From assembly GCF_003966955.1 (NCBI RefSeq), contig NZ_AP019367.1, positions 434,001-498,000 on the forward strand: a stretch of 64,000 nt of DNA. The letters run 5' to 3'. Position 1 is the stretch's first letter. Each line of letters starts with the position of its first letter. The notes under the pieces were generated by a model. The model did no database searches. It was not told the origin of the DNA and saw nothing but the letters and a program-made list of their open reading frames with translations. The translations under genes were made by a program, and so were the position numbers. Below are positions 50,642-64,000 of the stretch, one piece after another. Source of the stretch: Parolsenella catena (lineage in GTDB: Bacteria; Actinomycetota; Coriobacteriia; Coriobacteriales; Atopobiaceae).

Positions 50642-50717
<76 letters not shown>

Positions 50718-50727
50718 TGTGAATGAG

Positions 50728-50755
50728 GGGCCGGCCACAATCGGCCGGCCCTTTT
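50728..50755 (+). terminator. Hairpin between tRNA-Gly and tRNA-Cys, copy 1
   Basis: GGGCCGGCC-ACAATC-GGCCGGCCC followed by TTTTC, six bases before tRNA-Cys. Confidence 0.75.
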
Positions 50756-50760
50756 CATAT

Positions 50761-50834
50761 GGCGACGTGGCCAAGTGGTAAGGCATGGGCCTGCAAAGCC
50801 CCTACCCCCAGTTCGAATCTGGGCGTCGCCTCCA
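50761..50834 (+). tRNA. tRNA-Cys (anticodon GCA), copy 1
   Basis: Acceptor GGCGACG / CGTCGCC, anticodon loop CTGCAAA, T-loop GTTCGAATC, encoded CCA. Identical to 51197-51270. Confidence 0.96.
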
Positions 50835-50842
50835 ATGATCGT

Positions 50843-50875
50843 GAGCGACCCGGCCGGCAGGTTGGGTCGCTTTTC
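50843..50875 (+). terminator. Terminator after tRNA-Cys copy 1
   Basis: GCGACCC...GGGTCGC followed by TTTTCTT. Confidence 0.8.
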
Positions 50876-50892
50876 TTGTCGCGTGCATGCCG

Positions 50893-50980
50893 CCACGGTA
50901 TCGCGAGTGTAGCCATTCGGTCATTGTCGGCGTGATTTTGGGCCCAAGAGTGACCGATTGGCTACGCTCGCGGTGTCTGG
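50893..50980. repeat. Imperfect inverted repeat between the two tRNA pairs
   Basis: A segment containing CGCGAGTGTAGCCATTCGGTCA at 50902-50923 is complementary, with few mismatches, to TGACCGATTGGCTACGCTCGCG at 50951-50972. The arms extend a few bases further. It is absent from the other inter-tRNA interval. Confidence 0.7.
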
Positions 50981-51077
50981 GCGAGGGGTCTGATTGCCTG
51001 GCCGAGACCCGGCCGAGAAAAAGTTTTCGATTTTGCTTGGCTTGGGCGAGAAGTTTGTGTATAGTATCTCCTCGCAC

Positions 51078-51153
<76 letters not shown>

Positions 51154-51163
51154 TGTGAATGAG

Positions 51164-51191
51164 GGGCCGGCCACAATCGGCCGGCCCTTTT
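51164..51191 (+). terminator. Hairpin between tRNA-Gly and tRNA-Cys, copy 2
   Basis: Exact copy of the hairpin at 50728-50755, again followed by TTTTC. Confidence 0.75.
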
Positions 51192-51196
51192 CATAT

Positions 51197-51270
51197 GGCG
51201 ACGTGGCCAAGTGGTAAGGCATGGGCCTGCAAAGCCCCTACCCCCAGTTCGAATCTGGGCGTCGCCTCCA
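51197..51270 (+). tRNA. tRNA-Cys (anticodon GCA), copy 2
   Basis: Exact copy of 50761-50834. A diverged terminator (GCGGTCC...GGGCCGC, then TTCCTTTTT) follows at about 51282-51317. Confidence 0.96.
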
Positions 51271-53198: not shown

Positions 53199-53415
53199 GG
53201 CGTGCCTCGTGGGCGCGCGTCCCGTGATGCGAGCCTTGTGGCGGGCGCTTTGGATGTGCACCCGCGATCTGCATGCGTGCGTTCGTGGCGCGCGTCCGTG
53301 ACCTGCGGCTTCTCAAACTTTTTGGCAGTTGGCAAAAAAATTTGAGATTTTGGGTTGCATGGGGTGTGGGTCTTAGGTATATTACTCCTCGCGCTGAAAC
53401 GCGCACCAGAGCTTC

Positions 53416-53490
53416 GGGCGTTTAGCTCAGGGGGAGAGCGCTTCCCTGACACGGAAGAGGTCACAAGTTCAAATCTTGTAACGCCCACCA
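53416..53490 (+). tRNA. tRNA-Val (anticodon GAC)
   Basis: Acceptor GGGCGTT / AACGCCC, anticodon loop CTGACAC, T-loop GTTCAAATC, encoded CCA. An AT-rich promoter-like stretch lies at 53320-53390. The serine recombinase frame on the minus strand ends inside its T-arm. Confidence 0.95.
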
Positions 53491-54944
53491 AACGTAATCC
53501 CTCCGAACTGCCAACTACCTGGGAGTTCGGAGGGTTTTTCTTTACCCATGCTCCCCGTGACGGCCCAGGGTACCTCCACCGTGACGGTTCCGTCGCCCGA
53601 TATCTCGACCCTGCCGATAGTTCTTCTTAGCACCTGTTTGGTTATATTTTTTGGGAACTTCGCGCGGAGCCAGCGGATGGCCCAGTCGCGGTCGGGCGTG
53701 GTGGCGCGCTCGAGGTTGGCGATCTCGCACTCGAGTCTGCGCGCCTCGTCACCCATCCCCTCGAGCCTCTCCTGGACGAGTTCCGGGTCGACGCCGCCAA
53801 TGATGGCGTCGACGAGGCGCTCTCGTCCCCTCTGGACCTCCCTAAGCTCCTCCCGCGCCCTCTCTAGCCTCTTGGCCTCGTCCCGGCGCTCAATGGCCGC
53901 GAGAACCGCGTCTGCGAGCGCCTCTGCCTGTCCCGGCCTGGCCATGACGGAGGAGACCACGTCGGTCACCGCGTCCTCGACGGCCTCCTGCCTGTAGCGG
54001 ACCATGCCGCCGCCGTCGGTCGGGCACGAGTAGTAGAAGTAGCGCTTGCCCGTGCACCCGGTGCCGCCGTCGCCGCGGTAGGCGCGGCCCGACTCGGCGT
54101 CGAAGAGCTTGCCGGTGAGCGGGAACGCGCCCACGCGCCCGTGCTTGCGCTTGCCGTTCGCGGCGTCGAAGCGCTCCTGGGTGACGAGCGCGGGCATGCC
54201 GCCCTCGACCACGACGTCGCCGAACTTGTAGATGCCGAGGTACTTCCTGTTGCCGAGGAGCGTCGTGACGGAGTTGACCGTCCAGGCCCCGCCGCGCACG
54301 TTGCGGCAGGCGGTGTTGAGCCAGTCGCGCACCTCGGTCTTGGTCGAGCCGTTCGCCGCCATCGCGAAGGCGCGGCGCACGCAGGCGGCCTCGTCCTCGT
54401 CGACGGCGTAGCGGCCGTCGTCGCCCACGCGGTAGCCGAAGACGCGCACGCCGTTGGCCTTGCACTTGCGGGCGTTGCCTGCCATGCCGCGGCGGACGTT
54501 CTGCGACAGCTCGCGCGAGTACCACTCGTTGACGCCCTCGAGGACGCTCTCCAGGATCGAGCCCTCCGGCGCGTCGGGGATGCGCTCCATGGCGGAGAGC
54601 AGCGACACCCCGTTGTCGCGAAGCCTCATCCTGTAGCTCGCCGAGTCGAAGCGGTCTCGCGCGAAGCGGTCGAGGCGGTAGACCACGACCACGCCCCAGC
54701 CCGCGTCCCGCGAGTCGGCGACCATGCGCTGGAACTGCGGGCGGTCGTCCGACTTGCCCGACAGGGCCTTGTCGGCGTAGACGCGCTCGACCTCCATGCC
54801 GTTTGACTTAGCGAACATGGTGCACACGCGCACCTGGTCCTCGATGGACTCCTCGCGCTGCCTGGCCGACGAGTAGCGGGCGTAGATGACGCAGCGCTTG
54901 TGGTCCTTCTCGGGCGCCTTACGCGATCCCCTGCGAGATGCCAT
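53469..54944 (-). CDS. int: Large serine recombinase (integrase) of the mobile element
   Basis: A 491-residue protein from ATG at 54944. The resolvase catalytic domain begins CVIYARYSSARQREESIEDQ (Ser25) and continues with VVYRLDRFARD. The recombinase domain (MAGNARKCKANGVRVFGYRV, TVTTLLGN-type region, YLGIYKFGD) and a coiled coil (about residues 370-430) follow. The usual first CxxC of the zinc ribbon is replaced by LTGKLFDAESGR. The last 25 or so codons run through the tRNA-Val terminator and into the tRNA itself. It catalyses element integration and excision. Confidence 0.92.
   Translation of the reverse strand: MASRRGSRKAPEKDHKRCVIYARYSSARQREESIEDQVRVCTMFAKSNGMEVERVYADKALSGKSDDRPQFQRMVADSRDAGWGVVVVYRLDRFARDRFDSASYRMRLRDNGVSLLSAMERIPDAPEGSILESVLEGVNEWYSRELSQNVRRGMAGNARKCKANGVRVFGYRVGDDGRYAVDEDEAACVRRAFAMAANGSTKTEVRDWLNTACRNVRGGAWTVNSVTTLLGNRKYLGIYKFGDVVVEGGMPALVTQERFDAANGKRKHGRVGAFPLTGKLFDAESGRAYRGDGGTGCTGKRYFYYSCPTDGGGMVRYRQEAVEDAVTDVVSSVMARPGQAEALADAVLAAIERRDEAKRLERAREELREVQRGRERLVDAIIGGVDPELVQERLEGMGDEARRLECEIANLERATTPDRDWAIRWLRAKFPKNITKQVLRRTIGRVEISGDGTVTVEVPWAVTGSMGKEKPSELPGSWQFGGITFGGRYKI
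53499..53543 (+). terminator. Terminator of tRNA-Val, overlapping the integrase 3' end
   Basis: Perfect 11-bp arms CCCTCCGAACT / AGTTCGGAGGG, then TTTTTCTTT. It is read through by the integrase frame on the other strand, and may hold or border the attachment site. Confidence 0.85.
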
Positions 54945-54981
54945 AATGTGACCGTCCCTCTCTTCCAAGGTGTGGACGTCT

Positions 54982-55013
54982 GCCTCGGTGCGGAATGCAG
55001 TCCGCACCGAGGC
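54982..55013. terminator. Hairpin between the integrase and Abi genes
   Basis: A perfect 13-bp stem GCCTCGGTGCGGA / TCCGCACCGAGGC. It lies between the Abi stop and the integrase start, both on the minus strand. A U-tract is present only on the plus strand, so its role could be regulatory. Confidence 0.6.
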
Positions 55014-55032
55014 GCTTTCTTGTGGCCGGGAG

Positions 55033-55950
55033 CTAGTCCCGGTATTCCATCGGTATATCTTTCGGATTCGTGTACATCGCGTTGAGCGCCCTCGGGTCCA
55101 GCCGCCCACGGAAGGGGTCGATCACCGAAGCGAGCGTCGAACCGAGCTCTTCGCTCCTCTCAAGCGGAAGCACCATTCTGAGCTCGTTGAGCATGGCATC
55201 GAAGTGCAAGCCGTCTATGCTCGCGCAATAGAGCCTGTCGTCATGGGCGCATATGTTCCTGAAGCCTACGAGCACGTGAAACGCTGTCAGCAGGTCTCTT
55301 GCGCCGATTCGCCCGGCTGCCGACCATGACGATATGATTCGGCACGCGGCGTTCTGAACGCCCCTCTTTTGGAGCTGGTAGAAGTGCTCGACATTGCCGA
55401 ACGTGAGGTCGTTCTGGAGAACCCATAGCGGGACCTCCCCATAGCTCTCCAGGTAGTGACGTACGCAGTCCGGGGTTCTGCTGCTGATTCCCAGCTTCCC
55501 GTTCAGCCTTCTCATGAGGTCGGCAAGGTTCTTGTTGGCCTCTGTCTCGACGTTCTTCCTGAACGCTTTGGGAACGAGCATGTCCCTGGGGCGGACGTAG
55601 TTCGAGCGCTCCAGGTAGGCGTTCGCCTCCGGGTGCTTCTCGCAAAACGCGTAGACGACGGCGTTCTTCATGCAGGCCTCCGCCTCTATGAGGTAGCGGA
55701 GACAAAACGCCCTCAGTTCCCTGTCGAAGAGGAAGAGGTCGTATATCTGCCTGAAGGTCGTGCCCTTCTTGTACACGTCGCCCGGGCTCGACTGCATTGC
55801 CGCTCGGTCGAGGAACGTGTCCTTGTAGCCGTTGACGATGGCATAGTAGCCCTCGCGCTGGAGGACGGACGAGGTCTTTTCATCGGTTTTGACGCCGCGG
55901 GACTCTAGGAGGTCGACCAGCTCCCCGATCGTCTTGAACTCTTTTGCCAT
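55033..55950 (-). CDS. Abi-family (AbiD/AbiF, Abi_2) abortive-infection protein
   Basis: A 305-residue protein starting MAKEFKTIGELVDLLESRG. The opening YYAIVNGYKDTFL, then FDRELRAFCLRYLIEAEACMKN is typical of the Abi_2 family. The C-terminal GFRNICAHDDRL gives an RX4H HEPN ribonuclease motif. Family members block growth of incoming phages, probably through RNA cleavage. It sits beside the integrase, as accessory defence genes of prophages often do. A hairpin lies just upstream of its start. Confidence 0.88.
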   Translation of the reverse strand: MAKEFKTIGELVDLLESRGVKTDEKTSSVLQREGYYAIVNGYKDTFLDRAAMQSSPGDVYKKGTTFRQIYDLFLFDRELRAFCLRYLIEAEACMKNAVVYAFCEKHPEANAYLERSNYVRPRDMLVPKAFRKNVETEANKNLADLMRRLNGKLGISSRTPDCVRHYLESYGEVPLWVLQNDLTFGNVEHFYQLQKRGVQNAACRIISSWSAAGRIGARDLLTAFHVLVGFRNICAHDDRLYCASIDGLHFDAMLNELRMVLPLERSEELGSTLASVIDPFRGRLDPRALNAMYTNPKDIPMEYRD

Positions 55951-55970
55951 TTCGACTCCATAAAATCAAA

Positions 55971-56000
55971 GGGGCCGCTGCCCGATCGGGCAGCGACCCC
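55971..56000 (-). terminator. Terminator upstream of abi
   Basis: A 15-bp stem with one mismatch, GGGGCCGCTGCCCGA / TCGGGCAGCGACCCC. On the minus strand it is followed by TTTGATTTTA. It can end the transcript of the 56146-56463 gene; lying 20 bp before the abi start, it could also attenuate abi. Confidence 0.75.
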
Positions 56001-56145
56001 TTCTTTGTCTCCGATTCACGTGGATTAGGGGAGACTGCGTCACTGCCACAACTATAGCTAAAACTTGAACAGAGTTACCGAAAATATGTAGAAATCTCCG
56101 TGTCTCGATGACTTCTCTCGTCTGACCGCCCATGTCGGCGTGCGA

Positions 56146-56463
56146 CTAGAAAAGCTCTTGGTCGGTTGGCGAGGCGAGCACGTCGTGGACCTTGACGACC
56201 CTGTACCTCGAGTTTTCCCAGATGCCGATGGAGTTGAGCTTCTGTGTCACCTCAAGATCGGCGTCGATGTAGTCACCGATGCCGAACGTCCAGGAGTGGG
56301 ACAGCAGCTTCTCGTAGAAGGCCGTGTCTATCACGGGTGCGGAGATCTTGTTTCCCCTGTAATAGAACTCCCACTTCCTCGAGCTACTGGGCTCGAGGAC
56401 GGCCTTCGAGACTGCCAGCTGCGCATGCCCGTCGATATGGGTTCGCTCTTCGCTGACGTCCAT
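56146..56463 (-). CDS. Uncharacterised 105-residue protein
   Basis: ATG at 56463 follows GGAGG with six-base spacing. The protein (MDVSEERTHIDGHAQLAVSK) ends with GDYIDADLEVTQKLNSIG, then YRVVKVHDVL. Such a pattern is seen at the end of several phage or mobile-element proteins of unknown role, but I cannot name a family. No membrane segment is visible. It is on the lysogenic-side minus strand with the repressor and abi genes, so expression in the integrated state is likely. Confidence 0.65.
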   Translation of the reverse strand: MDVSEERTHIDGHAQLAVSKAVLEPSSSRKWEFYYRGNKISAPVIDTAFYEKLLSHSWTFGIGDYIDADLEVTQKLNSIGIWENSRYRVVKVHDVLASPTDQELF

Positions 56464-56649
56464 TGGAACCTCCAAATCTGGTCATCGCCTTGTCCGCCGT
56501 CCGTGGCCGGCAAATTGGTTTGTCGGTCAGAAAGCGTCGCTTCTGGCGGACAAATTTGTGGGAATCTCACAAAAAGCCGCGCAAGAAGATGATTTAACCG
56601 CCTGGACGGTCGCTCGGGCGGACATGTAGGCCTGGCCGCGAAAAAGAAA

Positions 56650-56680
56650 GAGGCGGCCTCCCGGGTCGGGCGGCCGCCTC
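56650..56680 (-). terminator. Terminator of the repressor gene
   Basis: GAGGCGGCC...GGCCGCCTC, followed on the minus strand by TTTCTTTTT, 63 bp past the repressor stop. Confidence 0.85.
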
Positions 56681-56742
56681 TGGACGCGGACCCCGTGAGG
56701 CCACCGCGCCAATGCGCCGCCATCATACCAGGTCGCGCCTAG

Positions 56743-57111
56743 CTAAGCCGTCTCCTGGCCCAGGCAAGGGAGATCACCGCTTTTTGGGTGGGTCACCCGG
56801 AGGCCCGCCATGACGCTGTCGGCCACCTCGCGGCCCTCCTCCGAGAGCGAGTCGTAGGACTCGACCAGGCCGCGGTGCGCCGGGTCTGGCGCGATCGCCT
56901 CCGTTGCCTCAAAGCGCCTTCCTGCCAGCTCGTCGAGCGAGCACTCGAGGAAGTCGGCGATGACGCATGCCTGTTCGAGGGACATCATCCTTTCGCCATT
57001 CTCCCAAGATGTAATCCTTCTCTCGGTGAAGTTGCCACCCAGAGCGGTTGCAAAGTCTCTTCGGTTCTTGTAGCCGGCTTCTTTTCTTAAACGCTTGAGC
57101 TGTATCTCCAC
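56743..57111 (-). CDS. XRE-family repressor (CI-like)
   Basis: A 122-residue protein from GTG at 57111 with AAGGAGG five bases upstream. The N-terminal helix-turn-helix (LKRLRKEAGYKNRRDFATAL, then RRITSWENGERMMSLEQAC) is followed by a short acidic region. It has no LexA-type protease domain, so induction by self-cleavage is not expected. It is divergent from a Cro-like gene across four operator-like sites and is the likely lysogeny repressor. Confidence 0.88.
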   Translation of the reverse strand: MEIQLKRLRKEAGYKNRRDFATALGGNFTERRITSWENGERMMSLEQACVIADFLECSLDELAGRRFEATEAIAPDPAHRGLVESYDSLSEEGREVADSVMAGLRVTHPKSGDLPCLGQETA

Positions 57112-57140
57112 AGACGCCTCCTTTCGTGCGTTGGCTGTAG

Positions 57141-57170
57141 ATTACACGCAGAGCGTAAGAAATTCAACAA
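57141..57170 (-). promoter_or_regulatory. Probable repressor promoter
   Basis: On the minus strand: TTGTTG (57170-57165), an 18-bp spacer and TGTAAT (57146-57141). Operator-like site 1 overlaps the -10 and spacer. Confidence 0.5.
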
Positions 57171-57266
57171 TTAGTAAAAAATCTGTTGACCACATCACGC
57201 AAAGTGGTTATATTCGGCTCAGCAACACACAGAGTGGTTGTTTGAATTACAGAATCACTTAAAGCG
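57145..57266. promoter_or_regulatory. Four operator-like sites of the repressor/Cro switch
   Basis: The 11-mer CACNNARAGYG occurs at 57145-57155, 57196-57206, 57226-57236 and 57256-57266. The last three are exactly 30 bp apart. Site 1 overlaps the repressor promoter, site 2 sits in the spacer of the rightward promoter, and sites 3 and 4 lie in the early leader of the Cro gene. Confidence 0.75.
57186..57214 (+). promoter_or_regulatory. Rightward promoter of the Cro-like gene
   Basis: TTGACC at 57186-57191, a 17-bp spacer containing operator-like site 2, and TATATT at 57209-57214. Confidence 0.75.
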
Positions 57267-57280
57267 ATTGGAGGGATCAC

Positions 57281-57490
57281 ATGGACAAGAACACGATGGG
57301 CCGCCGACTGCGCAGCTGGATGGTCGACGCGGGAATGACCGCGGAAGACCTCGCCGCGCGACTCAAGGTCAGCTCAGGCGCTGTCTCGTCTTGGACGAGC
57401 GGTCAGCGCTCCGTCTCATTGGACCGTGCTTGCCAGATCTGCGACGTTTTCGGCAAACCGCTCGATGAGCTGGCCTGCCGCGGGGAGTAG
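57281..57490 (+). CDS. Cro-like helix-turn-helix protein
   Basis: A 69-residue single-domain XRE protein with AEDLAARLKVSSGAVSSWTS as recognition helix region and a DRACQICDVFGKPLDELA tail like that of the divergent repressor. TTGGAGGG precedes ATG at 57281. It probably binds the same operators to favour rightward transcription. Confidence 0.88.
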   Translation: MDKNTMGRRLRSWMVDAGMTAEDLAARLKVSSGAVSSWTSGQRSVSLDRACQICDVFGKPLDELACRGE

Positions 57491-57806
57491 CCCCGTCCGT
57501 GCCGCTCGCGGTGATGGCGGGAGCCCGCTGCGTGTCCGCCTGGGGACGCCAACGACACCGGAGTCCCGCTTCTCCGCTCCGGGACCGCCCGGCGCGTGTC
57601 ACGGGCGCGGTCGTCCGGCCGTCGCCGCGAGCGGCACGGGAGAGGCGAGGAAGGGCCCTCCGTCCGGCGAGGCGAGAGGGGCCCGAGACCTTGGGAGCCG
57701 CCCGCGGGCGGCATGAAAACCGAATAGCGACTTGGCGGCTCCTCGAATCGCAAGGAACCGCCGAACGGATGCGGCCTGACGCGGCGGCCGGAAGGGAGCC
57801 GCGCCC
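57491..57806. other. GC-rich region with no convincing gene
   Basis: Several frames are open by GC bias, but none has a good ribosome site, start or protein-like composition. Confidence 0.5.
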
Positions 57807-57914
57807 ATGAATGACAGGGACAGAATCGAGTTCCACATCTTTGCGATCACGATGACGGTGAACCTCGCCGTCATCGTCATCTTCCTCGGGATTCTCGTCA
57901 GGGCGCTGTGCTGA
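57807..57914 (+). CDS. Small single-span membrane protein, 35 residues
   Basis: ATG at 57807 follows AAGGGAG by nine bases. The sequence MNDRDRIEFHIFAITM is followed by a hydrophobic span (VNLAVIVIFLGILV) and ends RALC. A charged N-terminus and one span recall small phage membrane proteins, but no family is recognised. Its last 17 bp overlap the 3' end of a convergent gene on the minus strand. Confidence 0.6.
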   Translation: MNDRDRIEFHIFAITMTVNLAVIVIFLGILVRALC

Positions 57915-58296
57915 GCGACGCAATCGTGATGACGAGCGTGACTATCGCCGAGAGCGCACCGGCAATCTCAAGGACGATTCGCGCCCTCGCAAGGCGCCTC
58001 TCGCGCTTGTAGTGACGCAGGTAGCAGACACCGTCACCGGTCAGCGCGAACGTGTCCCACAGCTTGAGCGTCTGCTCGACCTGCTGGCCCGCGACCTCTA
58101 CCACGGAGGACATCTCGAACCGCTCGCCCTCGTACTCGATGAGCCCCGCGCGCTTGAGCGACTGAATCGCCCCGGCCTCGTCCCAGACGTCGCCACTGTC
58201 GAGCTTGCCGAGCCTGAAGGCGACGTAACCAATCTCGCACGAGTGCGGGGCAAGCTCGACGAGCAGGCGCTCCTGCTCAATAGGGAGAAGTTCCAT
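57898..58296 (-). CDS. Uncharacterised protein with C-terminal membrane anchor
   Basis: A 132-residue protein (MELLPIEQERLLVELAPHS). The first 80 residues look like a winged-helix or similar domain (SLKRAGLIEYEGERFEMSSV). A basic stretch (YKRERRLARARI) and one C-terminal span (VLEIAGALSAIVTLVITIA) follow. It may be a membrane-tethered regulator. It lies opposite to the rightward genes and overlaps the end of the 35-residue membrane protein gene. A lysogenic-state function is possible. Confidence 0.65.
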   Translation of the reverse strand: MELLPIEQERLLVELAPHSCEIGYVAFRLGKLDSGDVWDEAGAIQSLKRAGLIEYEGERFEMSSVVEVAGQQVEQTLKLWDTFALTGDGVCYLRHYKRERRLARARIVLEIAGALSAIVTLVITIASLSTAP

Positions 58297-58368
58297 GGCG
58301 TTCCAATCGAATCGGCAGCAACTTACTCAATCATAGGCCGCCGCGTCAGGCCGCATCCGTGGCACCAA

Positions 58369-58511
58369 GCGCACGCGCCGCGAGGCGCACCGGGGCGCAG
58401 TCCCCGCTGTAGGCGACCACCGCCGCCGGAACTAAACAAAGCGTCTGACGAGCGCACTCCTTGGGTCGGCGGCCGTGGCCGCGGCCCCGGCGCTCCTCGC
58501 GGTGCGTGCGC
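58369..58511. repeat. Inverted repeat, 28-bp arms, 87-bp loop
   Basis: Arms at 58369-58396 and 58484-58511 are complementary with three mismatches. They share CCTCGCGG and GGGGC blocks. It lies in the otherwise gene-free 58297-58588 interval. Confidence 0.75.
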
Positions 58512-58588
58512 GGATCTATCCAAGACACAAAAAAATGGCCCCACGTCCGCCAAGACAAGGAGGGCCATCGACCTAAAGGAGGTCGCAC

Positions 58589-58807
58589 ATGAGTCTACCA
58601 GAGTTCGAGGCCGCGTCGCTCGACGCGGCGGCCATGGCCATGGGGTCGCCCGCCGGGTGGCTCGCGGTGGCCGCGTCCGTGGCGGCCGACGTCGCGGCGC
58701 TCTGCGGCGTGGGGGCGCTCGAGTGGCCCGCCATCGCCGTCGGCCTCGGCGTGCCCGCGTGGCTCGCGTGGTGCTGGCTGTCGGTCGCGGAGAGGGGAGC
58801 GCGATGA
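58589..58807 (+). CDS. Small membrane protein, 72 residues
   Basis: ATG at 58589 follows a strong AAAGGAGGT site. MSLPEFEAASLDAAAMAMG is followed by two hydrophobic spans (about residues 22-40 and 47-65). It is the first gene of the rightward early operon; its TGA overlaps the next ATG. No family is recognised. Confidence 0.72.
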   Translation: MSLPEFEAASLDAAAMAMGSPAGWLAVAASVAADVAALCGVGALEWPAIAVGLGVPAWLAWCWLSVAERGAR

Positions 58808-59031
58808 CGGGGGAGGAGGTCGGCGCCCGCGAGGTCGCGCTCGACGCGATCGCGGCGGAGATGCTCGCCGACTGGATGGCGTACCTGGACTCGGAGGAAG
58901 GTGGTGGCCGCGATGGCGGTCGTGGTGCAGCTGGACGGGACGATGTCGGCGGAGGTCGCGCGCTTCCTGCGCGAGGGCCACTCGACGCTGGGGGTGAGAA
59001 GGATGCTGGAGGCGTGCCCGAGGCTGCGTGA
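58804..59031 (+). CDS. Small acidic protein, end uncertain
   Basis: The ATG overlaps the previous stop. The first 35 residues (MTGEEVGAREVALDAIAAEM...) look protein-like. The rest is Gly/Arg-rich and overlaps the next gene by over 120 bp, so the true product may be shorter or this may be a chance frame. Confidence 0.4.
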   Translation: MTGEEVGAREVALDAIAAEMLADWMAYLDSEEGGGRDGGRGAAGRDDVGGGRALPARGPLDAGGEKDAGGVPEAA

Positions 59032-59266
59032 GCACGTGGAGGCAGACCGCGACGTGCTGATGTCGCGGGAGGCGGACGAACACGCGACGCGCCACGGGAA
59101 GCCCTGGACCAGGGCGGACTACAACCGGGTGGCGGCGGACTCAAGAGACGGCCTCCCCATGTGGAGGACCGCCAAGGCGCTGAGGCGCACCGTCGAGGAC
59201 GTCAGGCGCGCCCGAGCCACGCTGTGCGGGAGCCAGCCGCTCGCAGGAGGCGAAGGCCGTGGCTGA
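58904..59266 (+). CDS. Uncharacterised phage protein, 120 residues
   Basis: GTG at 58904 is six bases after GGAGG; ATG at 58913 is an alternative. The N-terminal half contains MSAEVARFLREGHSTLGVRR and the C-terminal half KPWTRADYNRVAADSRDG then TAKALRRTVEDVRRAR, an HTH-like helical region resembling small phage DNA-binding proteins. It overlaps the DUF6291-like gene by 8 bp. Confidence 0.65.
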   Translation: MAAMAVVVQLDGTMSAEVARFLREGHSTLGVRRMLEACPRLREHVEADRDVLMSREADEHATRHGKPWTRADYNRVAADSRDGLPMWRTAKALRRTVEDVRRARATLCGSQPLAGGEGRG

Positions 59267-59984
59267 GCAGAAGATGAACTTCTACCGCTCGTTCTGGGAC
59301 ATGTCGAACGTGCTCCCCGCGGCCGGGCGCAGGCGGTTCGTGACGGCGGTGGTCGACTATTTCTTCACCGGAGAGGAGCCGAGCGGCCTCACGTCCAAGG
59401 AGGCCGCGCTCTTCTCCGGCATCCGCGGGAGGGTCGACGCGTCGAGGTCCGGAGCCGAGTTCGCCCGCAGGCGCTACGAGGGTGCCGCGAAGGCACCCGG
59501 CGTGGGTACCGACGCGGTCAGACAAGCGACGGGCAACGGCCATCCCAACGGTGGCACCCATCGTGCCCCCCAGCGTGGGTCGCAACGTGGCACCCAGGCC
59601 GAGACCCACGCTACAGAGGGAGAGGGAGAAGTAAAGAGAGGAAGAGAGGACGCGGGCGTGCGCGCGTACGCCGACCTTGCGGAGCCGGACAGGGGCGAGG
59701 TCGTCGCGTGGTTCGAGGCGAACGGCCACGGGATGCCGACGGCCCGGCTCAGGGAGGAGGCCGAGGCGTTCTACGACCACTTCTCCGCACAGGGCTGGGT
59801 GACCGGGGCCGGCGTGCCCATCAGCCGCTGGCAGGCCAAGGCGGCGGCGTGGCTGCGCCGCGCGGCGGAGTCCTCGACCGGGGAGCGGGGCCGCGTGCCG
59901 GGAAGGCGGGTGGCCCCGCAGGCCCCGGCGTGCGACTTCTCCGCCTACTCAGCGGAGCCCTCGGAGGTGGTCTCCCGTGGCTAG
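59259..59984 (+). CDS. DUF6291-like phage replication-associated protein
   Basis: A 241-residue protein from GTG at 59259 with AGGAGG eight bases upstream. The N-terminal 65 residues (MNFYRSFWDMSNVLPAAGRR, then FFTGEEPSGL) resemble the DUF6291 domain that often precedes phage replication genes. A polar linker (about 85-125, rich in Gly, Thr, Gln, Arg) follows. A C-terminal domain (EVVAWFEANGHG, then AEAFYDHFSAQGW) resembles the end of phage replisome-organiser proteins. It overlaps the DnaC-like gene, so it probably recruits that loader to the origin. Confidence 0.72.
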   Translation: MAEQKMNFYRSFWDMSNVLPAAGRRRFVTAVVDYFFTGEEPSGLTSKEAALFSGIRGRVDASRSGAEFARRRYEGAAKAPGVGTDAVRQATGNGHPNGGTHRAPQRGSQRGTQAETHATEGEGEVKRGREDAGVRAYADLAEPDRGEVVAWFEANGHGMPTARLREEAEAFYDHFSAQGWVTGAGVPISRWQAKAAAWLRRAAESSTGERGRVPGRRVAPQAPACDFSAYSAEPSEVVSRG

Positions 59985-60756
59985 GGACGTGTCCTCGGCG
60001 CTCGCCGAGATAACGAGCCGCTACGGCATCCCGGCCGAGGTGCCCGCGCCGCGGCCCGTGCCGCCGCAGGTGACCCACGGGACGGCGCGCGAGATCGTGC
60101 TCGCGCAGATCGCCGCTGGCGCCGGGGCGTCGATACCGCAGGGGCTGCTCGACCGCGCGGGCCTCACCCGCGACGGCCGCGACGCCGCCGACGAGCTGCT
60201 GCGCCGCGCGACGGAGGCCGCCGGCGTGCCGCCCGAGTTCCGAGACGTCGAGCCGGACCGCTCGCGCAACGACCGCTTCGCGCCGGAGCGCCACCGCGGC
60301 GTCTGGGCCTACGGCGACGTGGGCCGCAGCAAGACCAGGACGGCGTGCGCGTGGCTTCGCGGCTGGCTCCTGGACAACCCCGGCGGCTCGGCGCTCTTCG
60401 CCACGGAGGACTCGATGCTCGGCGAGGTCAAGAGCGCCTTCGACAGGCGCGACGCCGACGCGGAGGCCGTACTGGGGCGCTTCGTCTCGGCGGACTTCCT
60501 CGTCCTCGACGACATGGGCAAGGCCCGGCTCTCCGCGTGGGGCATCTCGCAGGTCTTCCGCGTCATCGACGGCCGCTGGGCCGGGCGCAGGCCGACGGTG
60601 TTCACCTCGCAGCACGGCCTGGCCGAGTGGGGCGAGGTCGCCGCGCAGAGCGGGGTCGAGACTGCCAAGGCGTGCGTGTCACGCATCTTCGGCGGGTGCG
60701 ACGTGGTGAGGTTCGACGGCCGCGACGGCCGGATTTGTGGGGAGGCAAGGCCATGA
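59977..60756 (+). CDS. DnaC-like helicase-loader ATPase with variant Walker A
   Basis: A 259-residue AAA+-type protein from GTG at 59977. Walker A reads GDVGRSKT (113-120), with Ser118 where Gly is normal. Walker B is FLVLDDMGKA, and a sensor-like FTSQHGLAEW follows. The N-terminal 90 residues would bind helicase. The overall form and the neighbouring DUF6291 gene fit a phage DnaC/IstB-type loader. Overlap with both neighbours indicates tight co-translation. Confidence 0.78.
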   Translation: MARDVSSALAEITSRYGIPAEVPAPRPVPPQVTHGTAREIVLAQIAAGAGASIPQGLLDRAGLTRDGRDAADELLRRATEAAGVPPEFRDVEPDRSRNDRFAPERHRGVWAYGDVGRSKTRTACAWLRGWLLDNPGGSALFATEDSMLGEVKSAFDRRDADAEAVLGRFVSADFLVLDDMGKARLSAWGISQVFRVIDGRWAGRRPTVFTSQHGLAEWGEVAAQSGVETAKACVSRIFGGCDVVRFDGRDGRICGEARP

Positions 60757-60914
60757 CGGAAGGAATCAGTCCCGACATCAAGCGCGCCTACAACAGGGTG
60801 AGGTACGAGAAGAGCCGCGAGTACAGGCGCCGCTATTACCTCGAGCACCACGAGGAGCGGCTCGCGTACCAGCGCGAGTACCGCAAGGCCGCGCGAGGGG
60901 AGGCACGCGGATGA
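60753..60914 (+). CDS. Small basic protein, 53 residues
   Basis: The ATG overlaps the previous TGA, and GGGGAGG is upstream. A short N-terminus (MTEGISPDIKRAYNRVRYEK) precedes an Arg/Tyr/Glu-rich helix (REYRRRYYLEHHEERLAYQ). Its form suggests a small nucleic-acid-binding helical protein. No family is known to me. Confidence 0.62.
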   Translation: MTEGISPDIKRAYNRVRYEKSREYRRRYYLEHHEERLAYQREYRKAARGEARG

Positions 60915-61123
60915 GCCGCGAGAGGTGCGGGACGTGCTCCCGCTGGATGTGGGTCTGCGAGGACAGGTTCGGCGACATGCAGGGCGTGTGCTCGCTGGCC
61001 ATGGAGCGCGAGTCCGGCGGGCTGCGCCTGCCGGTCGAGACGCTGGCCTGGGCCAGGGCGCACCTTTTGGGCGCGTGGCGCAGGCCCTGCGACGAGTGGG
61101 AGGCGGCGCGGGATGGGGCGTAG
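60911..61123 (+). CDS. Cys-rich small protein, 70 residues
   Basis: ATG at 60911 overlaps the previous stop. CGTCSRWMWVCEDRFGDMQG then VCSLA provides four Cys suited to a zinc-binding site. A helical C-terminus (LPVETLAWARAHLLGAW) follows. Function unknown; small zinc-ribbon proteins are common in phage early operons. Confidence 0.62.
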   Translation: MSRERCGTCSRWMWVCEDRFGDMQGVCSLAMERESGGLRLPVETLAWARAHLLGAWRRPCDEWEAARDGA

Positions 61124-61370
61124 GTCGCGGGCGTGGGACCCGGTCGAGCTCGACGGGCCGGCGACGCGGAGGCTCGTCCGGGCGCTCTCCGCGGGCGTGC
61201 CGATGGACGCGCTGGAGCGCCGCTTCGGCCGGAACGGCGAGACGCTCGTGCGCGCCGCGAGGGCGGCCGGCTGGGACGGGACGAGGGCCCCGGAGCCGCT
61301 CGTGGCGGCCGAGACGCCCTCGAGCGTGTCGCTCCCGCCCGGCTACTACGGGTGCTCGAGGAGGCCGTGA
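61113..61370 (+). CDS. Small helix-turn-helix-like protein, 85 residues
   Basis: ATG at 61113 overlaps the previous gene by 11 bp. PATRRLVRALSAGVPMDALE then RRFGRNGETLVRAARAAG looks like a short Sigma70-region-4-like helix-turn-helix. The ending is SLPPGYYGCSRRP. Probably DNA-binding; target unknown. Confidence 0.6.
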   Translation: MGRRSRAWDPVELDGPATRRLVRALSAGVPMDALERRFGRNGETLVRAARAAGWDGTRAPEPLVAAETPSSVSLPPGYYGCSRRP

Positions 61371-61810
61371 TGGATGACGAGATCTTGGGAGGGGAGAACG
61401 TGAGCGAACGAACGGGCATGCCGACGGCGGCCGACCGCAGGCTCCTCGCGGAGCGCCTGCGCTACCTCGTGGCGGGTGAGGACGGCTGGCCGACCGAGGG
61501 CGTGGGCGTGGCTCTGGGCCTGCTCGACGTGGTCACCGCCGCCGCGCCGCGCGCCCCGCGCACCGTGCCGGACGCGGTGCGGGCGCTGGCGGACCTCGTG
61601 GACGTGCCGAGGTGCCGCCTGGTCGACCGGTGGGACGCCGCCCGCGGCAGGCACTACGTGGACTGCACCGCCTGCCGCTTCGGCTCGAGGGCCGAGGGGC
61701 TGCCGGAGGGGCACCCGATGGCGACGCTCTCGAGGGAGCTGTGGAGGACCGGGGCGGCCGAGGCGTGCCAGCGCTGCCCGGTGTGCGGGGCGGAGGTGGA
61801 GCGTGACTGA
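61370..61810 (+). CDS. Uncharacterised phage protein with C-terminal zinc-like Cys pair
   Basis: A 146-residue product from ATG at 61370, overlapping the previous stop by one base; GTG at 61400 has the stronger ribosome site (GGGAGGGGAG) and is a good alternative. RCRLVDRWDAARGRHYVDCTACRFG and, near the end, CQRCPVCGAEV give CxxC pairs that could hold zinc. Function unknown. Confidence 0.62.
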   Translation: MDDEILGGENVSERTGMPTAADRRLLAERLRYLVAGEDGWPTEGVGVALGLLDVVTAAAPRAPRTVPDAVRALADLVDVPRCRLVDRWDAARGRHYVDCTACRFGSRAEGLPEGHPMATLSRELWRTGAAEACQRCPVCGAEVERD

Positions 61811-62129
61811 CCTGGAGTGGGACCGCGCGCCCAGGGAGTGGGCGACGTCCGAGGACCCGCGCCGAGGCGAGGGCTGCCGCGCGGACGAGCCGCCGACCGA
61901 GGTCGTGCGCGACCCCGAGTGGTACGTCGCGGGCGGGGTCGAGACCATCGACAAGATCGAGGCCGTCATCGACGGCCTGCCGGCGCGGGAGGCGTTCCTC
62001 CTGGGGCAGGTGGTGCGCTACGTTGACCGCGCGGGCCTCAAGGACGAGCCCGAGGTGGACCTCGGCAAGGCCAACAACTACGCCCACAGGCTCGTGACCG
62101 GAGATTGGAGGGTCGATGACCAAGGGTGA
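61803..62129 (+). CDS. DUF3310 phage protein
   Basis: A 108-residue protein from GTG at 61803. After a polar start, WYVAGGVETIDKIEAVIDG, then FLLGQVVRYVDRAGLKDE and DLGKANNYAHRL match the DUF3310 nucleotide-kinase-like family found in many phages. Biochemical role unknown. It overlaps the next gene by 14 bp. Confidence 0.82.
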   Translation: MTDLEWDRAPREWATSEDPRRGEGCRADEPPTEVVRDPEWYVAGGVETIDKIEAVIDGLPAREAFLLGQVVRYVDRAGLKDEPEVDLGKANNYAHRLVTGDWRVDDQG

Positions 62130-62628
62130 GCGGGACCTCCGCGTCGTGCGCGACGACGGCAGGGCGTTCGCCTCGCTCGATGCCGCCGGCGCCGCCACCT
62201 ACGGGAGGCTGAGGTGCGGGGCCGGGATCGCCCGGGCGATCAGGACGGGCGGCAAGGCCGGCGGGCACCGCTGGCGCTACGCGCGGGGCTGCGAGCCTCG
62301 CGAGGAGGGGACCGACGCGTCCCGCGGGCGGTGGACGGAGCGCGAGCGGTGGAGGCTCGCGACGCTCTGGCCGCGGCACGGCCGGGACTGGGAAGGCTGG
62401 GCCGAGGCGCTTCCGGGCCGCACGATCGACGCCATCGAGGCGATGGCCCGGAAGATGGGTCTTCGGCCCAAGCCGAGGAGGGGCGCGTGGACGAGGGCGG
62501 AGGAGTCCGTCCTCCTGCGCGGCCTGATGGACATGGCGCGGGAGACGGGCAGGACGCCCGGCGCGATAGTGACGCGGCTGGGCCACCTCAGGTCCGCCGC
62601 GAAGCGGGAGGAGAGGGGAGCTAGGTGA
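62116..62628 (+). CDS. SANT/Myb-like DNA-binding phage protein
   Basis: A 170-residue protein. An N-terminal segment (GRAFASLDAAGAATYG, then AIRTGGKAGGHRWRY) resembles the small domains that read repeated helices in phage proteins. It is followed by two Trp-rich helical repeats, RGRWTERERWRLATLWPRHG and RGAWTRAEESVLLRGLMDM, spaced like SANT/Myb repeats. Likely DNA-binding. Confidence 0.68.
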   Translation: MTKGERDLRVVRDDGRAFASLDAAGAATYGRLRCGAGIARAIRTGGKAGGHRWRYARGCEPREEGTDASRGRWTERERWRLATLWPRHGRDWEGWAEALPGRTIDAIEAMARKMGLRPKPRRGAWTRAEESVLLRGLMDMARETGRTPGAIVTRLGHLRSAAKREERGAR

Positions 62629-63041
62629 TGGAAGAGAAGGGGAACTGGTACGAGGGCGTCCCGGCACCCGTGGACAAGGACGGGAACGTGGTGCCTCTCG
62701 CGACGAGGAAGCTCTACGACGGGACGGGCCATGAGATCGAGGTCGGGGAGATCGCCCTCGTCGACTCCAAGCTCAGCGGAGGCCTGGTGTGGCGCGTCAG
62801 GGAGGTCGACGGGCCGATCTTGACGCTCAGCCTCCTCCACCTCGAGCGGCCCGACACCTGGGAGCGCGTCGAGGCGGACCTCATGGCCATGGCACGCGCG
62901 GACTGCGCCTGCTACTACTTCGGGGCCGGCGCGGACCTCAATTGCGACGAGTGCCCGGCGGAGAGCTGCTCTGAGTCGTGCTTCGTGGAGGCCGCCCGCG
63001 ACGTCCTGCGCCGCTGCAAGGCCATCGCGGGGGTGGCGTAG
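62628..63041 (+). CDS. Uncharacterised phage protein with Cys cluster
   Basis: A 137-residue protein from ATG at 62628, sharing one base with the previous TGA; GAGGAGAGGGGAG is upstream. The middle (IALVDSKLSGGLVWRVREVD) looks like a small beta-barrel. CACYYFGAGADLNCDECPAE then CSESCF provides six Cys and may bind metal. Function unknown. Confidence 0.62.
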   Translation: MEEKGNWYEGVPAPVDKDGNVVPLATRKLYDGTGHEIEVGEIALVDSKLSGGLVWRVREVDGPILTLSLLHLERPDTWERVEADLMAMARADCACYYFGAGADLNCDECPAESCSESCFVEAARDVLRRCKAIAGVA

Positions 63042-63203
63042 GTGTCCGCCGCCGGAGTCTGCTGGTTCCTGGTCGCGGCGCTGGAGCTCGCCCGCTACGT
63101 GGCTGACCAGCCGGGCGGGGCAGACGCGTCGGGGCACGGGCTGTTCTTCATGCTGGCGCTGGTCCTGGTCTACCTGGACATGATCTACGAGAGAGGAAGA
63201 TGA
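63042..63203 (+). CDS. Small two-span membrane protein, 53 residues
   Basis: GTG at 63042 directly follows the previous stop. MSAAGVCWFLVAALELARYV is a first span, and a second span (LFFMLALVLVYLDMIY) follows a Gly/Asp/Ser loop. The TGA overlaps the HNH gene's ATG. Such small membrane proteins are common in phage early operons; role unknown. Confidence 0.6.
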   Translation: MSAAGVCWFLVAALELARYVADQPGGADASGHGLFFMLALVLVYLDMIYERGR

Positions 63204-63838
63204 CGATGCGCCATGGGAGGGCCGTCGACGTGGCCTCGCCGCCGGAGCCGATGCCCGAGCTCAGGCCGATACCGTCGACGGGCGGGCTCTACCTCGCCGG
63301 GGCGGACGGCTCCGTGTGGCGGGCGGCGGGGTTCGATGCCCGCGGCGTGTGGCGGCCGCCCAAGCGCTGCGCCACGCGCGTCGAGGGAGGCGGCGCGGGC
63401 CGAAACCACCGGGGCAGGTACCTGCGGGTGAACACCACGGTCCGCGGGGTCCAGAAGGACCGCCCCGTGCACCGCCTGGTCGCGGAGGCGTGGCTCGACG
63501 GATACCACCCGCTGCTCGTGGTGCACCACGAGAACCACGACTGCCGCGACAACCGGCCGGAGAACCTCAGGTGCATGACGCGGGCCGAGCACGAGAGGCT
63601 CCACGGCCACGACGTCACGGACGTCGACGTGGCCAACGCGCGATACGACTTCGAGCTGCGTCGCGACGACCCATGGCCGGACCCCTACGCGCCAGAGCGC
63701 CGCGAGGCGCAGCTCGCCCGCCCGAGCCGGCGCGCCGGTCCCGAGGGCAGGAGGGACAGGGCCGCGGCGAGGCTCGACGCGCTCATCGGGATGTGTGTAA
63801 GCGTGAACGAAAGGGAGAACGAAGATGGACAGCGGTAA
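63200..63838 (+). CDS. HNH endonuclease
   Basis: A 212-residue protein starting at ATG 63200, overlapping the previous TGA, with GAGAGGAAG upstream. The N-terminal NUMOD4-like or similar region (GGLYLAGADGSVWRA) precedes the HNH_3 core HRLVAEAWLDGYHPLLVVHH, then ENHDCRDNRPENLRCMT, with AEHERLHGHD. The catalytic His pair lies in VVHHENHDC. It could be a homing-type or phage-cutting nuclease. It overlaps the next gene by 14 bp. Confidence 0.85.
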   Translation: MTMRHGRAVDVASPPEPMPELRPIPSTGGLYLAGADGSVWRAAGFDARGVWRPPKRCATRVEGGGAGRNHRGRYLRVNTTVRGVQKDRPVHRLVAEAWLDGYHPLLVVHHENHDCRDNRPENLRCMTRAEHERLHGHDVTDVDVANARYDFELRRDDPWPDPYAPERREAQLARPSRRAGPEGRRDRAAARLDALIGMCVSVNERENEDGQR

Positions 63839-64000
63839 CACCGGGCACGCGCCCACGCGATCGACGGACCTCGGGGCGCTCCAGGGCCTCATGTTCGAGG
63901 AGCTCGACAACCTCATGGCGCTCGACCTGTCGGGCGACCCCGACGTCATCGACGCCGAGATGCGCCGCGCCGAGGCGGTGAGCTCCATCGCGTCGACGGC
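63825..64000 (+). CDS. Uncharacterised phage protein, 3' end outside window
   Basis: ATG at 63825 after AAAGGGAGAACG opens a frame running past the window end. The visible 58 residues (MDSGNTGHAPTRSTDLGALQ, then LMFEELDNLMALDLSGDPD) are acidic and helical, as in many small phage proteins of unknown function. Confidence 0.65.
   Translation, partial: MDSGNTGHAPTRSTDLGALQGLMFEELDNLMALDLSGDPDVIDAEMRRAEAVSSIAST

Follow-up and report, generated by a model that had tools for sequence, protein, structure and literature searches.

Integration of a prophage into a tRNA-Val gene of Parolsenella catena appears to exchange the C terminus of the prophage's own large serine integrase, as indicated by reconstruction of the phage attachment site (attP) and of the protein tails in both states. 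The stretch examined, hereafter the window, comprises 64,000 nucleotides (G000:C1:434001-498000); the features discussed are collected in the table. We consider it probable that the integrase takes the T loop of the tRNA gene as its host half-site and has a state-dependent C terminus, whose extension would act only in the free state.

Table. Features of the tRNA-Val locus and of the prophage (window positions unless another record is given).
Feature	Position	Strand	Basis or remark
tRNA-Val(gac)	53416-53490	+	ARAGORN; attB target, restored in integrated form; same tRNA at the G001 empty site
Serine integrase gene (int), integrated form	53469-54944	-	491 aa, ATG at 54944; Resolvase and Recombinase domains
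Host-encoded int end, integrated form	53469-53485	-	codes GRYKI or RYKI plus stop
GTTC of tRNA T loop, host (B-type) arm of attL	53467-53470	+	GTTC-N34-GAAC in tRNA-overlapping relatives
attL common core GCCCACCAAA	53483-53492	+	synteny with empty site; identical at attR
Likely crossover dinucleotide	53485-53486	+	tRNA positions 71-72; inferred
Phage-borne terminator hairpin and T-run	53499-53539	+	fold; missing from the G001 empty site
GAAC, phage (P-type) arm of attL	53505-53508	+	CCA offset of 14 nt, shared by 19 of 23 relatives
34.4 kb prophage, portion within window	53485-64000	.	synteny; phage structural and lysis genes
attR core	G000:C1:521918-521927 (L069:3918-3927)		outside window; synteny with empty site
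Circle-form int tail coding	L069:3808-3918	-	reconstructed circle

The borders of the element were determined by comparison with G001, the sole congener among the relatives, in which tRNA-Val is unoccupied and no relative of the window integrase is found. G001 aligned with window positions 53287-53492 at 94% (left flank) and, at 83%, with chromosome positions 87918-89038 in numbering that begins at the window start (right flank). The two aligned flanks overlap by 10 bp, GCCCACCAAA, which gives an element of approximately 34.4 kb and places the attL and attR cores; joining the two flanks of the element reproduced the G001 site. A direct-repeat search with 12- to 14-mers over the following 70 kb had not revealed attR, which was located by synteny instead. 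The element is a prophage, since it encodes terminase, portal, head protease, tape measure, tail and endolysin proteins. An Abi_2 (abortive-infection-like) gene (55033-55950, minus strand) lies next to int. The prophage also encodes two tyrosine recombinases (PF00589; L068:901-2280, plus strand, and L069:125-1159, minus strand), at about 498.9-500.3 kb and 518.1-519.2 kb of G000:C1, one of which adjoins a carbohydrate-binding-module gene and the endolysin gene near attR. No convincing invertible repeats were seen.

As the initial annotation had claimed, the int stop codon (53469-53471) is located within the T arm of the ARAGORN-predicted tRNA-Val. Before reaching it, the int frame traverses a strong terminator-like hairpin (53499-53534; dG -27 kcal/mol, z -5.7). 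The last 25 or so codons, covering the tRNA end and the terminator, had been attributed to the host, but only about five codons and the stop proved to be of host origin. The hairpin is phage DNA, because the G001 empty site runs after CCAAA into a different terminator, and because a terminator of the G001 type is found at the far end of the element here. The phage terminator thus now serves tRNA-Val while its opposite strand codes for int, and it also holds the phage arm of the attachment site. The native tRNA-Val terminator (dG -27.9, z -4.9) has been moved to attR by integration. The integrase itself matches PF00239 (Resolvase catalytic domain, 1.9e-28) followed by PF07508 (Recombinase, 4.1e-13). 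GKLFDAESG stands at the place of the first zinc-ribbon cysteine pair, and no zinc-ribbon Pfam match was found in this protein; the cysteine pairs are kept in the consensus of the wider family. The first pair is also missing from the related L039 and L040 proteins.

In the integrated form the protein ends in GGITFGG-RYKI, and in the reconstructed circle it ends in GGITFGG-QKGCPLELYITSYGLEFVCGQKLEMCSKSRRANRNS, that is, with 36 residues instead of RYKI. The predicted attP junction of the window phage reads GTTCAAGCGGGCACCCTTTTTGCCCACCAAACGTAATCCCTCCGAAC, followed by the 36-codon tail; it had no exact match in viral contigs. The crossover falls within the int frame, and therefore the integrated and free states encode two proteins. 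This agrees with the proposal of the initial annotation that a crossover within the int end would give the two states different tails, and the tail of the reconstructed circular form indeed differs from the integrated one. The symmetry centre of attP lies at about tRNA position 71, which makes positions 71-72 the most likely crossover point, and a related element at tRNA-Arg narrows the core to positions 71-76.

The overlap between integrase and tRNA genes is not confined to the window phage. A search with the window integrase across 150 relatives yielded matches in 27 genomes. ARAGORN placed an RNA gene at the int 3' end in 18 of 29 loci besides the window's own, namely, tRNA-Glu, Arg, Ser, Lys, Leu, Asn, Val or Ala, or tmRNA. 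A tRNA-Pro overlap in a clostridial genome (L075) brings the total for related integrases to nine tRNA types plus tmRNA. The int frame runs into the RNA gene at 17 of the ARAGORN-placed 18 loci; at the remaining one, L042, it stops 16 nt short. The distance from the CCA end to the GTTC of the phage arm was compared over the 23 tRNA or tmRNA overlaps that encode CCA, including a few duplicate records: it is exactly 14 nt in 19 and 15 nt in two, and GTTC occurs at no other offset between 8 and 25. This fixed offset argues that the overlap is not due to chance. Integrases that are 71% identical target tRNA-Leu and tRNA-Glu, and others that are 63-64% identical target tRNA-Asn and tRNA-Glu, so the target shifts easily. 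By these comparisons, an int gene that ends in a tRNA gene and has an exchangeable tail is a trait of the family.

The spacing of the arms indicates how the site may be read. In tRNA-overlapping relatives attL has the form GTTC-N34-GAAC, composed of the phage arm and the tRNA T loop, whereas attP in free phage contigs, which hold no tRNA, has the form GTTC-N39-GAAC. In the reconstructed attP of the window phage, GTTC likewise lies 5 bp further out. For the LI integrase (A118 family), Rutherford et al. found the zinc-ribbon motif displaced by 5 bp in attP relative to attB (PMC3783163), and the N39/N34 spacing of the window family, read from its sites, corresponds to this known shift. We infer that the T loop serves the integrase as host half-site and is mimicked in attP by arms shifted outward. 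The shared core, 10 bp in the window phage and 6 bp in the Arg element, is very short, as for large serine recombinases.

The tRNA-Arg element is a second case established through its empty site, since in G163 the flanks overlap by 6 bp, GCACCA, corresponding to tRNA positions 71-76. A third case, at tRNA-Lys, is supported by an attR flank found downstream of tRNA-Lys in two congeners, the aligned part of which begins some hundreds of bases away. A motif search for tRNA ends and arms located attR in the Lys, Asn, Glu and Arg elements and gave less firm candidates in those at tRNA-Ser and tRNA-Leu. In the DNA retrieved, the same pattern found no attR for the tRNA-Glu(ctc) elements of G054 and G116 and no convincing one for G132, G130 and G008. 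The attP-form and attL-form tails differ in each placed element; for instance, that of the tRNA-Asn element is WLPVCAGKRTCMAMYHGTVLLRMQRAA in the attP form versus WLPGQDSNLRHAD in the attL form.

We then considered whether the free-phage tail, approximately 26 codons long in relatives, is maintained as protein. In seven clostridial free-phage integrases, about 35% identical to that of the window, the tail codons beyond the 47-bp site gave a pN/pS of 0.27 in the int frame compared with 0.82 and 2.07 in the other frames, with 93, 37 and 171 differences at codon positions 1, 2 and 3. When the site was included, the constraint on the tail was like that on the upstream 100 codons; in the nearer Coriobacteria-type free phages it was weaker (pN/pS of about 0.6). 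Tails of comparable length also recur despite the different frames in which the core is read. On these substitution patterns, the free-phage tail is under protein-level purifying selection in the clostridial relatives. In an AlphaFold2 model of L206, a related free-phage integrase, residues 1-451 form a normal serine integrase, with Bxb1 as best structural match in a multi-domain alignment (Z 18.3, 339 residues aligned, rmsd 12.8). They are followed by a disordered stretch and then by a hairpin (477-491) in a block with a pLDDT of about 80; the hairpin was predicted in a second protein too, but at low confidence. The L206 tail starts beyond the part that matches solved serine integrases, where the matched structures end. 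The comparison re-examined Foldseek hits only and barely probed the tail, so that an unmatched tail does not amount to a new fold. Very likely, then, the tail is a real protein segment in the free form, beyond the known fold.

These observations can be assembled into the following mechanism. The integrase would read the invariant GTTC of the tRNA T loop as host half-site; in attP it would read matching GTTC/GAAC arms set 5 bp farther outward. On integration the phage would restore the 3' end of the tRNA gene, starting near position 71, and bring in its own terminator. In the circular phage, the core integrase would carry a C-terminal extension encoded by the phage, for which a beta-hairpin is predicted in relatives; in the prophage, the extension would be cut off and a few antisense-tRNA codons would stand in its place. 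By our reasoning, prophage tails are arbitrary antisense-tRNA peptides, and excision therefore cannot depend on a conserved tail, which leaves the selected role to the free state. The extension would thus be dispensable for excision and active in the free state only, where it would most likely favour or limit integration, and integration itself would alter which form of the integrase is made. The tail might promote integration, block the directionality factor or limit the lifetime of the integrase. It is plausible that the swap switches integrase activity. A built-in switch of direction or timing, in which presence or loss of the extension would change how active or stable the integrase is or how it responds to the directionality factor, is a tentative proposal that we would put at somewhat below even chances.

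The absence of any switch is a rather unlikely alternative that nevertheless deserves weight. In that case attP would overlap int merely because the site and the enzyme travel together; the tail would be an ordinary structural terminus whose loss on integration is tolerated, the two forms working alike. Many prophages do hold int open with arbitrary tails, and everything that aligns with solved serine integrases (model residues 1-451) lies ahead of the tail, so that both forms could be active. However, purifying selection on the free-form tail implies that the tail does something in the free form, and its similar length despite the different core reading frames also argues against mere tolerance. 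An improbable alternative casts the free-form tail as an ssrA-like tag that would make the integrase short-lived during infection and would be lost on integration. Several Coriobacteria-type free-form tails end in -AA (e.g., PLAA, FPRAA and MQRAA), and such tags occur on mycobacteriophage integrases and repressors (PMC9262239), but the clostridial tails under selection end otherwise and the conserved tail lies mostly before the last residues. Such a tag does not suit the window phage itself, as its reconstructed free-form tail ends in RNS, not -AA.

It is very improbable that the tail is unselected as protein, with the frame open by accident and the conservation stemming from the DNA site and the hairpin. 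Site arms and hairpin do constrain the DNA, and in L072, a close relative, a TAG in the hairpin loop (L072:5900-5990) ends int before the core; in contrast, the constraint is codon phased beyond the 47-bp site, and tails of similar length occur in different frames relative to the core. We regard as hardly credible that one of the two tyrosine recombinases of the prophage integrated at tRNA-Val, with the serine recombinase as a bystander: tRNA targets are typical of tyrosine integrases, but the core measures just 10 bp here and 6 bp in the Arg element, against the 25 bp or more shared in mycobacteriophage tyrosine systems (PMC9262239), arm symmetry and the 5-bp shift suit serine integrases, and serine-integrase relatives abut many tRNA genes. 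The state-dependent C terminus of the serine integrase thus remains our preferred reading.

An int end that changes on integration is already known, among tyrosine integrases. The Myxococcus phage Mx8 targets tRNA genes, and its IntP and the SSV-type integrases are tyrosine integrases. In these systems attP lies within int and integration alters the C terminus, according to Tojo et al. (1996) as cited in PMC4383910, which treats the Mx8 and SSV integrases under the tyrosine integrases. The window attP likewise lies within the int frame and integration changes the C terminus, but the enzyme is a large serine integrase, with a family core of 6-10 bp. In the integration-dependent immunity of the mycobacteriophage BPs and its relatives, a protein loses its C-terminal tail as its gene is split at attP, at a tRNA gene (PMC9262239). 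In that system the repressor gene is the one split, and a tyrosine integrase is used, whereas in the window phage it is the serine int that is split, and an HTH repressor-like gene is located elsewhere (56743-57111). The free form of the immunity repressor carries a C-terminal ssrA-like tag that integration removes; the window phage's tail ends in RNS, and those of several relatives in -AA.

That tRNA-linked sites are less usual for large serine recombinases, as the initial annotation remarked, is borne out by the literature (PMC4383910, PMC9262239, PMC3218068). As of 2011, serine integrases at tRNA genes were described as rare, exemplified by phiRSM1 and a Mycobacterium AICE group (PMC3218068). 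These resemble the window family in placing a serine recombinase at a tRNA gene, but single tRNA targets were described for them, whereas the window family would use many tRNA genes via the T loop. The LI, Bxb1, SPbeta-type and phiC31 integrases have their fold in common with residues 1-451 of the L206 model, and in the literature searched we found no description of an integration-changed C terminus for any of them. Nor did that search, with many journals outside its coverage, find a description of a serine integrase family that reads the T loop or of a state-dependent serine integrase C terminus. Genome engineering makes wide use of serine integrases, which have been described as avoiding tRNA genes; a near-universal T loop as host half-site would give predictable bacterial landing sites. 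The family also offers a natural series for the study of retargeting, as in the 71% identical integrases at tRNA-Leu and tRNA-Glu. Directionality is usually attributed to a separate directionality factor alone, and the state-dependent C terminus would allow a direct test of whether the integration of an element feeds back on its own recombinase.

Several further arrangements were observed. In clostridial relatives (e.g., L176, L183 and L189) the attP core CTCCACCA stands in the sense of int, and the int frame still crosses it; this orientation predicts a tRNA co-oriented with int at the other end of the prophage. L151 contains a related prophage at a tRNA-Glu gene cut near the anticodon, with int open for about 160 codons beyond the core (L151:3840-4421). 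It was treated as a rearrangement rather than as a very-long-tailed integrase, the tRNA being truncated beside int. Within the window, a tRNA-Gly(gcc)/tRNA-Cys(gca) pair is present in two copies, 436 bp apart (50642-51270). Finally, in G040:C3 (tRNA-Asn element) and G069:C1 (tRNA-Glu element) the DNA to the right of attR opens with a further phage-type arm and terminator (GTGCGAACCCG...), which suggests that related elements have accumulated in tandem at a single tRNA gene.
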